Source: Dehalococcoidia bacterium (lineage in GTDB: Bacteria; Chloroflexota; Dehalococcoidia; Lucifugimonadales; UBA3495). Taken from it: a stretch of DNA of 44,205 nt. The stretch's first letter is position 1. The number at the start of each line of letters is the position of its first letter. Made by a program: the position numbers and the translations under genes. This document shows positions 18,308 to 38,446 of this stretch, in pieces. The notes under the pieces are model-generated. The model saw only the letters and a program-made list of their open reading frames with translations, was not told where the DNA came from and ran no database searches. Location of the stretch: NCBI GenBank assembly GCA_012959605.1, contig DUCU01000014.1, positions 1 through 44,205 of the forward strand, in the 5' to 3' direction.

Positions 18308-18360
18308 AGGAATAAGGACGGCCAATCGAAGGCACCTTTTGCCCAACAACAAAGATAAGA

Positions 18361-18386
18361 AAAGCCCCCTTGTTAGAGGGGGCTTT
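18361..18386. terminator. Bidirectional terminator
   Basis: AAAGCCCCC pairs with GGGGGCTTT over an 8-base loop, with T-rich flanks on both sides. It likely ends the six-gene minus-strand operon (last stop at 18456). Confidence 0.8.
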
Positions 18387-18455
18387 CTTGTTTCAGAGCA
18401 CCCCATTCCAGGAAACCACCTCAGGCTCGGTTGTGAAAGAGATCGCCTGTTGCCC

Positions 18456-32731: not shown

Positions 32732-35044
32732 ATGGCTTCCAATGTGGTCATTTCCAACGAAGAATTCGACGTGGTCGGTACCAGACCCATCCGCCACGAT
32801 GGCAACGACAAGGTAACCGGACGGGCGCGGTACAGCGCGGACATCACTCTGCCGAGAATGCTTACGGGCAAGATTCTCCGCAGTCCTCACGCTCACGCCA
32901 AGATCAAATCCATCGACACCAGCAAGGCAATGGACTTACCCGGTGTGTTGGCGGTGGTGACATCTGCTGATTTTGCCCAGCCAAGCGGGAAAATCACCGA
33001 CCTAGGCGAAGGCGCCATGGCCAACCCCAAGTGGATTAGCAATAACATCATGGCTGCGGAGAAGGCCCTGTATAAAGGGCATGCCGTAGCTGCGGTGGCG
33101 GCCATTAACAGCCAAGTGGCAGACGAAGCCGCTGCCCTGATTGAGGTGGACTATGAGGTTCTGCCCGCAGTAACCGACGTGTTGGAAGCCATGAAACCCG
33201 ACGCTCCGATTCTGCACGAAAGGCTTGCCAACTCGACGAACGCCAACATCCGCCCCGGCGGACTCCGAGACGAAGACGACACAGAAAAGGCCACCAACGT
33301 CTCCAACCATTTCGTGTTTGAACTGGGAGATATTGAAGCTGGGTTCAAAAAAGCTGACATCATTGTGGAGCGGGAATACCGCACCGCCACCGTGCATCAG
33401 GGCTATATAGAGCCTCACACCGCAACCGCAATGTGGGGAGAAGACGGCAAGCTGACGGTTTGGGGTAGCAGCCAAGGCCACTTCCAGATACGAGACCTTA
33501 CAAGCTTGGTCTTGGGCATCCCAGTCTCCCAAATCAAGGTTGTCCCCATGGAGATTGGCGGAGGCTTTGGCGGCAAGACGGTTATCTATCTGGAGCCTGT
33601 AGCTGCCGCTCTCTCTATGAAAGCTCGCCGACCGGTCAAGATTTCCATGGGCCGTTCAGAAGTGTTCATGGCCACCGGCCCAACCTCTGGAAGCGCCATG
33701 AGGGTGAAAATCGGAGTAAACAATGACGGCATGATCACTGCTGCGGACGTCACCATGATTTACGAAGCTGGTGGTTTTCCCGGTTCACCCATCGTCCAGG
33801 CCTGCCAATGCGTGTTGACTCCCTACGAGATTGCTGATGGGAGGATTGAAGGGTACGACGTGGTCGTCAATAAGCCCAAGGCCGCCGCTTACCGCGCTCC
33901 GGGCGTACCTGCGGCATCCTTCGCCGTGGAGTCTGTGATTGACGAGATTTGCCAGAAACTGGGGGTAGACCCGCTGGATTTCCGGGTCAAGAACGGAGTC
34001 AAAGAGGGCAGCCGCCGAATCCCTGGACCAGTCTTGCAGAAAGTGGGCTATATGGAGACTTTGGCTGCAGCCATGGGTACAGATCACTATAAATCTAAGT
34101 TGGAAGGTCCCAACCGTGGTCGCGGCGTTGCTGCCGGGTTCTGGTTCAACGGCACCGGCCCAGCATGCGCTACAGGTAGCGTTAATGGTGACGGTACCGT
34201 GAGCTTGGTTGAAGGATCTGCAGACATCGGCGGCGGGCGAGCATCCGTGGCTATGCAGATGGCTGAGGTACTTGGCATACCCGCTGAGGATGTGCATCCC
34301 ACGGTTGGCGATACCGACTCTGTTGGCTATACTTCACTGACCGCCGGTAGCGGAGCGACATTCAAGTCTGGTTGGGCTTCTTACGAAGCAGCCCATGACA
34401 TCAAACAACAGATGATCGAGCGCGCCGCGCGGATCTGGGAGGTGACCACTGATGACGTGGAGTTCACCAAGGGTGTGGCCTCCCACAAATCAGATCCCGA
34501 GCTGAAACTGACTTTCAAGCAAATTGCTGCCAGGTTAAACGGCACCGGCGGACCCATTGTTGGCCGAGGCAACGTTAACCCTGCGGGTGTTGGCAATGCC
34601 TTTGCCGTCCATATAGTTGACGTGGAAGTGGATCCGGACACCGGCAAAGTGGACGTTCTCCGCTACACCGCTCTACAGGATGTGGGTAAGGCCATTCACC
34701 CCAGCTATGTGGAAGGACAATTGCAGGGTGGAGTCGCCCAGGGTATCGGCTGGGCTCTGAATGAAGAGTATGTTTATAACGCTTCCGGCGAGATGGATAA
34801 CTCATCATTTTTGGACTACCGAATGCCCACCAGCTTGGACCTGCCGATGATCGACACGGTCATCGTGGAAGTTGCTAATCCGGGCCATCCCTTTGGTGCC
34901 AGAGGGGTGGGTGAGGTTTGTATCATTCCTCCGCTTGCAGCTATGGCCAACGCCATCCACAACGCTGCTGGCGTCCGGATGGAAGTGCTGCCAATGTCTC
35001 CTGGCAACGTCCTGGAAGCATTGTGGGCCAAAGATGGAAAGTAA
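32732..35044 (+). CDS. Xanthine dehydrogenase/CoxL-family molybdopterin-binding subunit
   Basis: A 770-residue catalytic subunit of a molybdenum hydroxylase. It opens with the small-domain motif D-x-x-x-K-V-T-G-x-A-R-Y-x-x-D (residues 23-37), followed by HAHAKI. GGGFGGK at 276-282 contacts the cofactor, AYRAPG is at 386-391, and the catalytic Glu is Glu728 in GVGE. The active-site loop AYRAPGVPAASF is not the AYRxCSFR of form I CO dehydrogenase, so a hydroxylase for an organic substrate (aldehyde, aromatic or CoA ester) is likelier. Such enzymes need FAD and 2Fe-2S subunits; neither is encoded next to it. AGGAG precedes the ATG, an extended -10 promoter lies upstream and a terminator downstream, so it is transcribed alone. 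Confidence 0.92.
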   Translation: MASNVVISNEEFDVVGTRPIRHDGNDKVTGRARYSADITLPRMLTGKILRSPHAHAKIKSIDTSKAMDLPGVLAVVTSADFAQPSGKITDLGEGAMANPKWISNNIMAAEKALYKGHAVAAVAAINSQVADEAAALIEVDYEVLPAVTDVLEAMKPDAPILHERLANSTNANIRPGGLRDEDDTEKATNVSNHFVFELGDIEAGFKKADIIVEREYRTATVHQGYIEPHTATAMWGEDGKLTVWGSSQGHFQIRDLTSLVLGIPVSQIKVVPMEIGGGFGGKTVIYLEPVAAALSMKARRPVKISMGRSEVFMATGPTSGSAMRVKIGVNNDGMITAADVTMIYEAGGFPGSPIVQACQCVLTPYEIADGRIEGYDVVVNKPKAAAYRAPGVPAASFAVESVIDEICQKLGVDPLDFRVKNGVKEGSRRIPGPVLQKVGYMETLAAAMGTDHYKSKLEGPNRGRGVAAGFWFNGTGPACATGSVNGDGTVSLVEGSADIGGGRASVAMQMAEVLGIPAEDVHPTVGDTDSVGYTSLTAGSGATFKSGWASYEAAHDIKQQMIERAARIWEVTTDDVEFTKGVASHKSDPELKLTFKQIAARLNGTGGPIVGRGNVNPAGVGNAFAVHIVDVEVDPDTGKVDVLRYTALQDVGKAIHPSYVEGQLQGGVAQGIGWALNEEYVYNASGEMDNSSFLDYRMPTSLDLPMIDTVIVEVANPGHPFGARGVGEVCIIPPLAAMANAIHNAAGVRMEVLPMSPGNVLEALWAKDGK

Positions 35045-36177: not shown

Positions 36178-36948
36178 CTAAAGTTCGGCTTCTACCCGTT
36201 TGCGGAAATCTTCTCCTGCCAACTTCAACAGGCCCTGAGACGAAACTGTGATGAAGTTTGCTCCAAGCTTGATGAACTCGGCCACACCGGCTGCGTCACC
36301 AGGGGAGTTACCACCAGCGCCAACGTTGATGCTGCCAGTCCTGATTTTAGGAATCACCTGGGCCATCAACTCGCGAACCTTGGCTGACCCGGGATTGCCC
36401 ATGCTCTGACCCAAGTCACCGGCCGCCACGTGTAGTACATCCACGCCGGGGACCTTGAGTATCGCGTCCAGGTTATCCACGGCCTGGGTTTCTTCAATCA
36501 TTGGGACCACCAATACTTGGGAGTTGATCCAGCTTGATGACTCTTCCCTAGTTCCGGCGGTACCGTAATCATGGGCACGCCCGCTGCCGGCCACACCACG
36601 ACGACCCTCTGGGTAATATCTGGCCGCCTGGGTCACTGATTCAGCTTCTTCTTTGTTGTTGACGTGGGGGATGATGAGTCCCTGTACTCCGCGGTCTAAG
36701 AAACGCAGGATAGTGGCGTCGTCGTGGTCTGGGATACGGGCAATGGGCGTGATGCCAAATACTTCGGCAGCACGGACCATATGCTCCACCTGGTCCAGGT
36801 TCATCGGGCCGTGTTCGCAATCGATCATCACAAAGTCGTAATTAATTGCCCCGAAAATCTCGACAATGTCAGGGGCGTATCGACTGACGATAGCGCCATA
36901 GACCACTTTGCCTTCCGCTAGTTTGGCCTTGGTGGTATTTGTTCTCAT
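36178..36948 (-). CDS. HpcH/HpaI family aldolase
   Basis: A 256-residue class II aldolase of the HpcH/HpaI (2,4-dihydroxyheptanedioate aldolase, 2-keto-3-deoxy-L-rhamnonate aldolase) family. It cleaves 2-keto-4-hydroxy acids to pyruvate and an aldehyde. It shows FVMIDCEHGPMN with Asp43, Glu45 and His46, ARIPDHD with Arg71, GLIIPHVN, the metal strand PMIEET (Glu152) and AAGDLGQSMG with Asp178. All expected catalytic and metal positions seem present. GGAGG lies rather far (about 15 bases) before the ATG. It is a single minus-strand gene downstream of a candidate small RNA on the opposite strand. Confidence 0.9.
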   Translation of the reverse strand: MRTNTTKAKLAEGKVVYGAIVSRYAPDIVEIFGAINYDFVMIDCEHGPMNLDQVEHMVRAAEVFGITPIARIPDHDDATILRFLDRGVQGLIIPHVNNKEEAESVTQAARYYPEGRRGVAGSGRAHDYGTAGTREESSSWINSQVLVVPMIEETQAVDNLDAILKVPGVDVLHVAAGDLGQSMGNPGSAKVRELMAQVIPKIRTGSINVGAGGNSPGDAAGVAEFIKLGANFITVSSQGLLKLAGEDFRKRVEAEL

Positions 36949-37105
36949 GGTTAAGTCGGGTTACCTCCGTAGATTGGTGATGGCCCATTATATGAAATAT
37001 ACGCAGCGGTAGGAAAGGAATACATTCTTGGGAACAATCGAACAGGAGCATGTGGAATGAGCGCACTGCTAACCAAGCTTATTTGCCGAATATAGGCATA
37101 AACAG

Positions 37106-37135
37106 TTGACAAAACTGATTCCGGCATGCTAAGAT
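37106..37135 (+). promoter_or_regulatory. Strong sigma70-type promoter
   Basis: TTGACA (37106-37111), an 18-base spacer ending in TGC, and TAAGAT (37130-37135): a perfect -35 with an extended -10. No protein gene lies downstream on this strand before the terminators. Confidence 0.7.
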
Positions 37136-37141
37136 AGCGGA

Positions 37142-37228
37142 GCGCTTTCACAAATTGGTGAAAGCGCTCTCTTTTGCCCAATGAATACGGATAATCAAAG
37201 GCCCCTCATTTGAGGGGCCTTTCTTTTT
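37142..37228 (+). ncRNA. Candidate small RNA with two hairpins
   Basis: The predicted start (about seven bases after the -10) is at 37142. The RNA would open with a hairpin (AGCGCTTTCAC paired to GTGAAAGCGCT, loop AAATTG, followed by TCTCTTTTG). A ~20-base linker with CCCAATGAATACGG follows, then a terminator hairpin at 37197-37222 with T5. No open frame of useful size is present. Length about 87 bases. Function unknown. It could be a trans-acting regulator, or the remnant leader of a lost gene (the first hairpin being an attenuator). Supported only by promoter, structure and terminator. Confidence 0.5.
37197..37228 (+). terminator. Rho-independent terminator
   Basis: AAAGGCCCCTC pairs with GAGGGGCCTTT around ATTT, then CTTTTTAT. 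The best T-run is in the plus direction, but the other side (TTTGATTAT) may also end the minus-strand gene stopping at 37265. Confidence 0.85.
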
Positions 37229-37264: not shown

Positions 37265-38257
37265 CTATTGGGACGGCTGCGCATTTCCCTGAAATTCCGG
37301 CATCACGTCTTTGGCGAACCTACGTAGGGTTGATATACCCGCTGGACAATTCAGCAGCACGTATTCAACTCCGATAGTCTGCAGGGCTTGAATCTGGTCG
37401 CTCACATACTCGGATGCGCCGTAAATAACGCCGACTTCGGCAGCCTCGCGAGTGTCTTGGAAACCGGATTGCTGGGCTAACTCCTGGGTCCTTCGTCTGG
37501 CTGAGACTCGGTTGTCTATTGCTTGGTCGTATTCTTCTGAGCTATCCACGATGTTCACGGAACGGGCCACCGCCACGCTCATCGGGTCAAAAGTCCGGCC
37601 CAGGGATTCGACTTCCGATTTGAACAGATCTACTTCCTCAGCAATGGTCTCAAATGAGTCGAACTGTCCCAAAAGCATGTTGAATCCAAGTTTTGCTACC
37701 TGCTTGATGGACCTGGGACTGCCGGCGCCCATCCACAGTTGCGGGTGAGGTTTTTGAATGCTTGATGGTTCTACAATCACACTGTCGTATTGCCAGTACT
37801 GGCCTTTGTGTGACCAAAGTGAGTCCAAGGTCCAAGCTTTCAGCATAACCTCTAAGCACTCTTCAAAACGGGAGTCTGCCTCGTCTGTTGGCATCGCGAA
37901 CCCTTCAAATTCATTGAGGCGATATCCCTTGCCAATCCCAGCGTCAACTCGGCCACCGGACAACAGGTCCAGGGTGGCAATCTGTTCCGCCAACAAGACT
38001 GGGTTGTGCCACGGCAGCACGATAACCGCCGTCCCCAGACGCAAAGTAGTCGTCCTCGCGCCAATCCAGGTCAGTAGGTTGAGTGTTGCAGATACCTGCC
38101 CAAATCCAGTGAAGTGGTGCTCCACCAAGAAAGTGCTGTGGTAGCCAAGGGACTCGGCCTCAACGTTGCGGTCCACGAACTCTCTAAACCCAGCGCCGCT
38201 ATCCACATTGGGTCCACCCCGTTGTGCCTGGGCGCTGCCAAACATTCCAAACTGCAT
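37265..38257 (-). CDS. Luciferase-like flavin-dependent monooxygenase (3 of 4)
   Basis: A 330-residue LLM-family enzyme. ATG 38257 (MQFGMFGSAQAQ) is chosen because LLM proteins usually begin with this strand. The frame also allows a TTG at 38281, separated by three TTGGGA-like repeats that give no clean RBS. Blocks are YHSTFLVEHHFTGFGQ, LRLGTAVIVLPWHNPVLLAEQ, LDLLSGGRVDAGIGKGY and LWMGAGSPRSIKQ. The pattern is that of F420/FMN-dependent alkanal or limonene monooxygenase-like enzymes. It is divergent from the fourth LLM gene at 38447. Confidence 0.9.
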   Translation of the reverse strand: MQFGMFGSAQAQRGGPNVDSGAGFREFVDRNVEAESLGYHSTFLVEHHFTGFGQVSATLNLLTWIGARTTTLRLGTAVIVLPWHNPVLLAEQIATLDLLSGGRVDAGIGKGYRLNEFEGFAMPTDEADSRFEECLEVMLKAWTLDSLWSHKGQYWQYDSVIVEPSSIQKPHPQLWMGAGSPRSIKQVAKLGFNMLLGQFDSFETIAEEVDLFKSEVESLGRTFDPMSVAVARSVNIVDSSEEYDQAIDNRVSARRRTQELAQQSGFQDTREAAEVGVIYGASEYVSDQIQALQTIGVEYVLLNCPAGISTLRRFAKDVMPEFQGNAQPSQ

Positions 38258-38446
38258 GATCAATCCCAATCCCAATTCCAATATTCAAATCTGCAGAGAC
38301 TTTACCACGAGCTTTGGTGAAGTAAACCGAGACGGGGTAATTAGAGCTAAAATGGCCTGGCATAGATTGCGATTTTGATGGATGCCCCTTCTCTTGATGT
38401 TTAGCGGGAGTCCGGCATATGGGTGTTTTTCTGATGGGTATATTTA

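Follow-up and report, generated by a model that had tools for sequence, protein, structure and literature searches.

Between two minus-strand genes of a SAR202 bacterium, one for an HpcH/HpaI aldolase (36178-36948) and the other for a luciferase-like monooxygenase (37265-38281), lies an intergenic stretch that was proposed in an earlier note to carry a small RNA, and the locus raises the question of whether this RNA gene is real and, if so, what its product would do. The SAR202 group is abundant in the dark ocean, and most of its members are uncultured. The comparison of the window, by which we mean the whole stretch of 44,205 nucleotides that was analysed, with its relatives indicates that the unit is very probably a real small-RNA gene belonging to an undescribed multi-copy family. 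As to its role, we give a probability of roughly 0.5 to the reading that 37080-37228 is one copy of a small-RNA gene of the SAR202 lineage, the product of which would act in trans by base pairing without Hfq as one of a set of sibling RNAs. The parts of this unit, and of a second copy in the window, are as follows.

37080-37228, + strand: whole unit, including the upstream box.
37080-37103, + strand: conserved box of 24 nt upstream of the promoter, consensus TATTTnnnnAATCTAGGCACAAAC, here TATTTGCCGAATATAGGCATAAAC.
37106-37135, + strand: promoter, TTGACA, 18 nt and TAAGAT, with TG before the -10 (from the window scan and the family alignment).
37141-37228, + strand: predicted small RNA of about 88 nt (from promoter spacing and the terminator).
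37140-37169, + strand: 5' hairpin of 12 perfect base pairs with the loop AAATTG, at the predicted transcript start (from folding and covariation).
37170-37179, + strand: U-rich stretch followed by GCCC, here TCTTTTGCCC, family consensus TTTTTTTGCCC.
37180-37196, + strand: copy-specific linker GAATACGGATAATC, kept among orthologues of the window locus.
37197-37228, + strand: intrinsic terminator, an 11-bp stem followed by CTTTTT, with a predicted 3' end at about 37228 (from folding, the window scan and covariation).
18329-18420, + strand: decayed second copy, in which GCCC, linker and terminator are kept and the promoter and 5' hairpin are lost.

Most of what had been described for the locus stands. 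Coding regions flank the predicted RNA, which is antisense to neither neighbour, and the perfect 12-bp hairpin noted at the 5' end (arms GAGCGCTTTCAC, 37140-37151, and GTGAAAGCGCTC, 37158-37169) begins no more than about 2 nt from the predicted transcript start. The RNA had been put at about 87 bases ending in an 11-bp stem and T5, and these parts are found between 37141 and about 37228, with the terminator stem arms at 37197-37207 and 37212-37222 ahead of the CTTTTT. It had also been said to lack a reading frame, and indeed no start codon or frame is shared among seven orthologous copies of the window unit. The promoter (TTGACA-18-TGCTAAGAT, with the -35 at 37106-37111 and the -10 TAAGAT at 37130-37135) had been called the best in the window, a claim that holds in part: its hexamer score of 10 out of 12 is the highest found across the window, but is equalled by sites at 34590 (+) and 8427 (-), and it is through the TG of an extended -10 that it stands alone among these three. 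Across 47 copies of the family, TTGACA-18-TGnTAnnAT is kept in both position and sequence, as far as sequence evidence can tell.

Absent from the earlier description is the box upstream of the promoter. Information per column over the 47 copies is near zero before this box and rises from about 0.1 to 0.6-1.7 bits on entering it, and, taken together with the -35, the box occurs almost exclusively at elements of the family. It is a possible activator site, and its presence suggests common control of all copies. The core of the box is also found elsewhere, as the motif AT(C/T)TAGGCA(C/T)(A/G)AA directly after the CCA end of tRNA genes for Lys, Arg, Glu and Sec (L209, L214, L217, L224, L231, L237, L238, L239 and L243). 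U7GCC might pair with the TAGGCACAAA box or with these tRNA trailers, but one mismatch is constant, and the idea was dropped.

Relatives carry the unit widely, and often more than once. A DNA search found it at about 72-88% identity, often in several copies per genome, in nine of the 11 other genomes of the genus and in two genomes, G013 and G029, that belong to the family but to other genera, the match in a further genome (G041) being limited to the terminator. A covariance model built from 22 copies gave one to eight matches in each of the 12 genomes of the genus and also matched six genomes in the rest of the family, spread over four genera; some weak matches of this model are to the terminator alone and are not to be counted as copies. 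Beyond the family all matches were weak or terminator-only apart from one: a single strong copy, in a different family, was found among 250 genomes of the order, and 400 genomes across the phylum gave weak matches only. This one copy (L125, in G089) resembles the dispersed copies of the genus and may reflect mis-binning or transfer. Among named records, the core occurs in metagenome assemblies of SAR202 and of Dehalococcoidia/Chloroflexi. The dispersed subfamily (L065, L073 and L125) has an extra common 3' segment past the terminator, GCGACACCCC...GGGGTACTGG, and some members of this subfamily are found on short contigs broken at repeats.

At the window locus both neighbouring genes are retained around the unit in four species, in one of which there are two tandem copies, and in two further species the aldolase gene alone adjoins the unit. 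Pairwise identity among these orthologues is 68% in the transcript region, 72% in the promoter and 62% in the upstream box, against 32-36% in the intergenic flanks, in which no likeness is recognisable; the proteins encoded on either side are 77-86% identical. Conservation drops abruptly at the edges of the unit. Two other loci keep a copy across species, one beside CinA-YjgF and a methyltransferase and the other in a neighbourhood of carboxymuconolactone decarboxylase, short-chain dehydrogenase and FMN oxidoreductase genes. Linkers are kept within a locus and differ between loci.

Folding and covariation point to an RNA read from the plus strand. A stretch of 106 nt folds at -49.5 kcal/mol, compared with -24.9 +/- 3.2 for its shuffles (z -7.8; none of 200 shuffles as good). 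Both stems covary: in an alignment made from sequence alone, in which 92% of cells pair, 11 of the 22 pairs are changed on both sides, a figure that none of 500 shuffles reached, and the signal is destroyed when the pairing partners are slid. Most of it comes from the terminator stem, where eight of ten pairs have changes on both sides, with three such pairs in the 5' hairpin (90.8% of cells paired). The arms of this hairpin vary widely across 48 copies, with 33 distinct 3' arms, and still fold (mean z -3.5). Many stem pairs that are U-G on the plus strand would become A-C on the opposite one, which fixes the plus strand as the one from which the RNA is read. An alternative stem, pairing GGC of the 5' or 3' arm with the GCC behind the U-run, can form in many copies but not in all and for that reason was rejected. 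The conservation of the unit, its limits, strand, two stems and multiple copies, together with the lack of a reading frame, are thus established from the sequence, and the candidate small RNA of the earlier note, for which stems that failed to recur in relatives had been named as part of the refuting outcome, gains support from a unit present in every genome of the genus, with both stems covarying, the promoter conserved and no shared frame.

No described family accounts for it. At the gathering thresholds of Rfam the window RNA had no match, and at relaxed thresholds the matches were chance-like. RsaE/RoxS (RF01820) has a similar build: it is about 100 nt long, begins with a 5' hairpin, exposes a pyrimidine-rich stretch containing a C-rich motif and ends in a terminator. 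It is known from Firmicutes, however, and its match scored 36.5 bits where the gathering score is 79; this match came up only with 211 bases searched on their own and is gone in a larger search. STnc100 (RF02076) resembles the unit in its terminator stem, which is the well-matching part of an alignment scoring 26.9 bits against a gathering score of 47. Among the papers searched, none joined SAR202 with small RNAs. To judge by these comparisons, the window unit belongs to a new family of intergenic, terminator-ended small RNAs, unusual in its copy number, its upstream box and its terminator-like 5' stem. Being conserved and equipped with a dedicated regulatory box, the family offers a concrete handle on regulation in a lineage that lacks Hfq, and the covariance model is directly usable on existing deep-sea metatranscriptomes.

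The likeliest role, we infer, is that of a trans-acting regulator that base-pairs independently of Hfq. Each copy would be a transcription unit by itself, driven by a strong extended -10 promoter that has an upstream box of its own, and would give an RNA of about 85-100 nt made up of the 5' hairpin, an exposed UUUUUUUGCCC stretch, a locus-specific linker and the terminator; the exposed U7GCCC and the linker would then pair with mRNAs, so that the copies would act as sibling RNAs with one common and one copy-specific segment. Sibling small-RNA families with a common seed and copy-specific parts are a general kind, and the present family is like them in having several similar RNAs per genome, each with its own promoter, and a common exposed segment beside a variable one. 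It differs from them in that its promoter carries a lineage-specific box and its genus is without Hfq, which was found in none of the 12 genomes although the controls were positive. A crude test showed no clear enrichment of the complement of the common segment before ATG, with 50 sites compared with 31 in a control and several of the sites explained otherwise. This counts against the pairing role, as do the occurrence of U7GCCC in riboswitch terminators and the broken U-run of the window copy (TCTTTTGCCC). The idea of a leader for the downstream gene was rejected, because the surroundings of the unit vary and the neighbouring genes frequently read in the opposite direction; in the window, as at many further loci, the gene that follows is encoded on the minus strand, though some loci have a same-strand gene there.

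The riboswitch terminators lead to the strongest alternative, which we consider somewhat unlikely, namely that the 5' hairpin and the U7GCCC behind it work as an intrinsic terminator of the attenuator type, at which most transcripts stop at about 40 nt, and that the 90-nt form is read-through to a second terminator; what matters would then be the short hairpin RNA, or the choice between stopping and reading through. Exactly T7GCCC (TTTTTTTGCCC) follows the 5' hairpin directly in 35 of the 48 copies, and the terminator scan calls this hairpin a terminator in copies other than that of the window. As an 11-mer, TTTTTTTGCCC has 65 matches in the 12 genomes, compared with 14 for the reversed pattern. 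The same hairpin-U7GCC tail stands after 11 of 23 TPP riboswitches, all of one orthologous group, and after four of 21 cobalamin riboswitches, and was found at none of ten ordinary hairpin-plus-T6 terminators in flanking DNA, a small sample. In riboswitches, a GCCC placed behind the terminator cannot serve as a seed in trans, and in the small-RNA family, too, the motif may therefore have to do with transcription; a tail common to riboswitches and small RNAs points to a lineage-specific feature of transcription termination. The 5' hairpin may accordingly stop or pause the polymerase, as a leaky early terminator instead of the stem protecting against decay that the earlier note proposed, with two possible products of about 40 and about 88 nt. 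Against early termination as the whole account, the second terminator is kept and covaries strongly and the linkers past the first hairpin are conserved, so that polymerase must often pass; moreover, the window copy has a broken U-run and its first hairpin is not called by the scan, and read-through should therefore be high there. The likeness to the attenuators of the TPP (RF00059) and cobalamin (RF00174) riboswitches extends to a hairpin running directly into U7GCCC in the same genomes, but the small RNA has no aptamer and often no same-strand gene after it; neither an aptamer nor a leader was found upstream of the 5' hairpin, and the window RNA contains no Rfam riboswitch.

A more tentative reading, rather unlikely in our estimation, places the attenuator-type terminator within the sibling family itself: in a family specific to one Hfq-less SAR202 lineage, each promoter would lead straight into hairpin-U7GCCC, so that a single start would yield both a short RNA consisting of the hairpin and a longer one made by read-through, under an upstream box the core of which recurs after tRNA genes.

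It is improbable, though some features would suit it, that the RNA works by binding a protein through the hairpin and U-rich stretch, as a sponge or a polymerase-binding RNA, and not by pairing with mRNAs. Stem sequences differ widely between subfamilies with the shape and U7GCCC staying constant, and many copies per genome would suit titration; yet the RNA lacks repeated GGA loops of the kind seen in CsrA sponges, no protein candidate presents itself, and the conservation of linkers within loci suggests copy-specific roles.

Still less probable is the view that the unit is a small non-autonomous mobile element, a repeat that spreads and makes no use of its hairpins as RNA. Several copies per genome, tandem pairs, copies on repeat-broken contigs and the decayed copy at 18329-18420 (37.3 bits over model positions 81-131 in the covariance search) are what such an element might leave, but orthologous copies have kept their locus across several species, both stems show compensatory changes, the promoter is conserved, and the exact core pattern had no match in viral contigs. 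That a promoter-like site merely happens to lie beside a bidirectional terminator of the minus-strand luciferase-like gene, as the nearly symmetric stem 43 nt past its stop codon might suggest, is refuted by the homologous copies, the whole unit recurring away from any such gene, and can practically be dismissed.

The riboswitch terminators of these genomes deserve some further description. Those ending in hairpin-U7-9-GCC(C) follow TPP riboswitches at L163, L166, L169, L170, L173, L174, L176, L177, L178, L182 and L184 and cobalamin riboswitches at L188, L191, L192 and L196; the other TPP riboswitch group of the genus is without this end. At four loci (L132, L145, L154 and L161) a conserved leader, GTCGGGCCCAGGCCAATGTCTACCATCGCCCC..., also ends in hairpin-U7GCCC; an Rfam scan of L132, L145 and L161 gave no match, and the leader is a candidate cis-regulatory RNA. 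Just past the cobalamin aptamer at L185, L190, L193, L198, L199 and L201, a second hairpin is possible between the 3' arm of the terminator and the bases that follow the U-run, for example GGGCAU-U4-AUGCCC, and could reopen the terminator after read-through.
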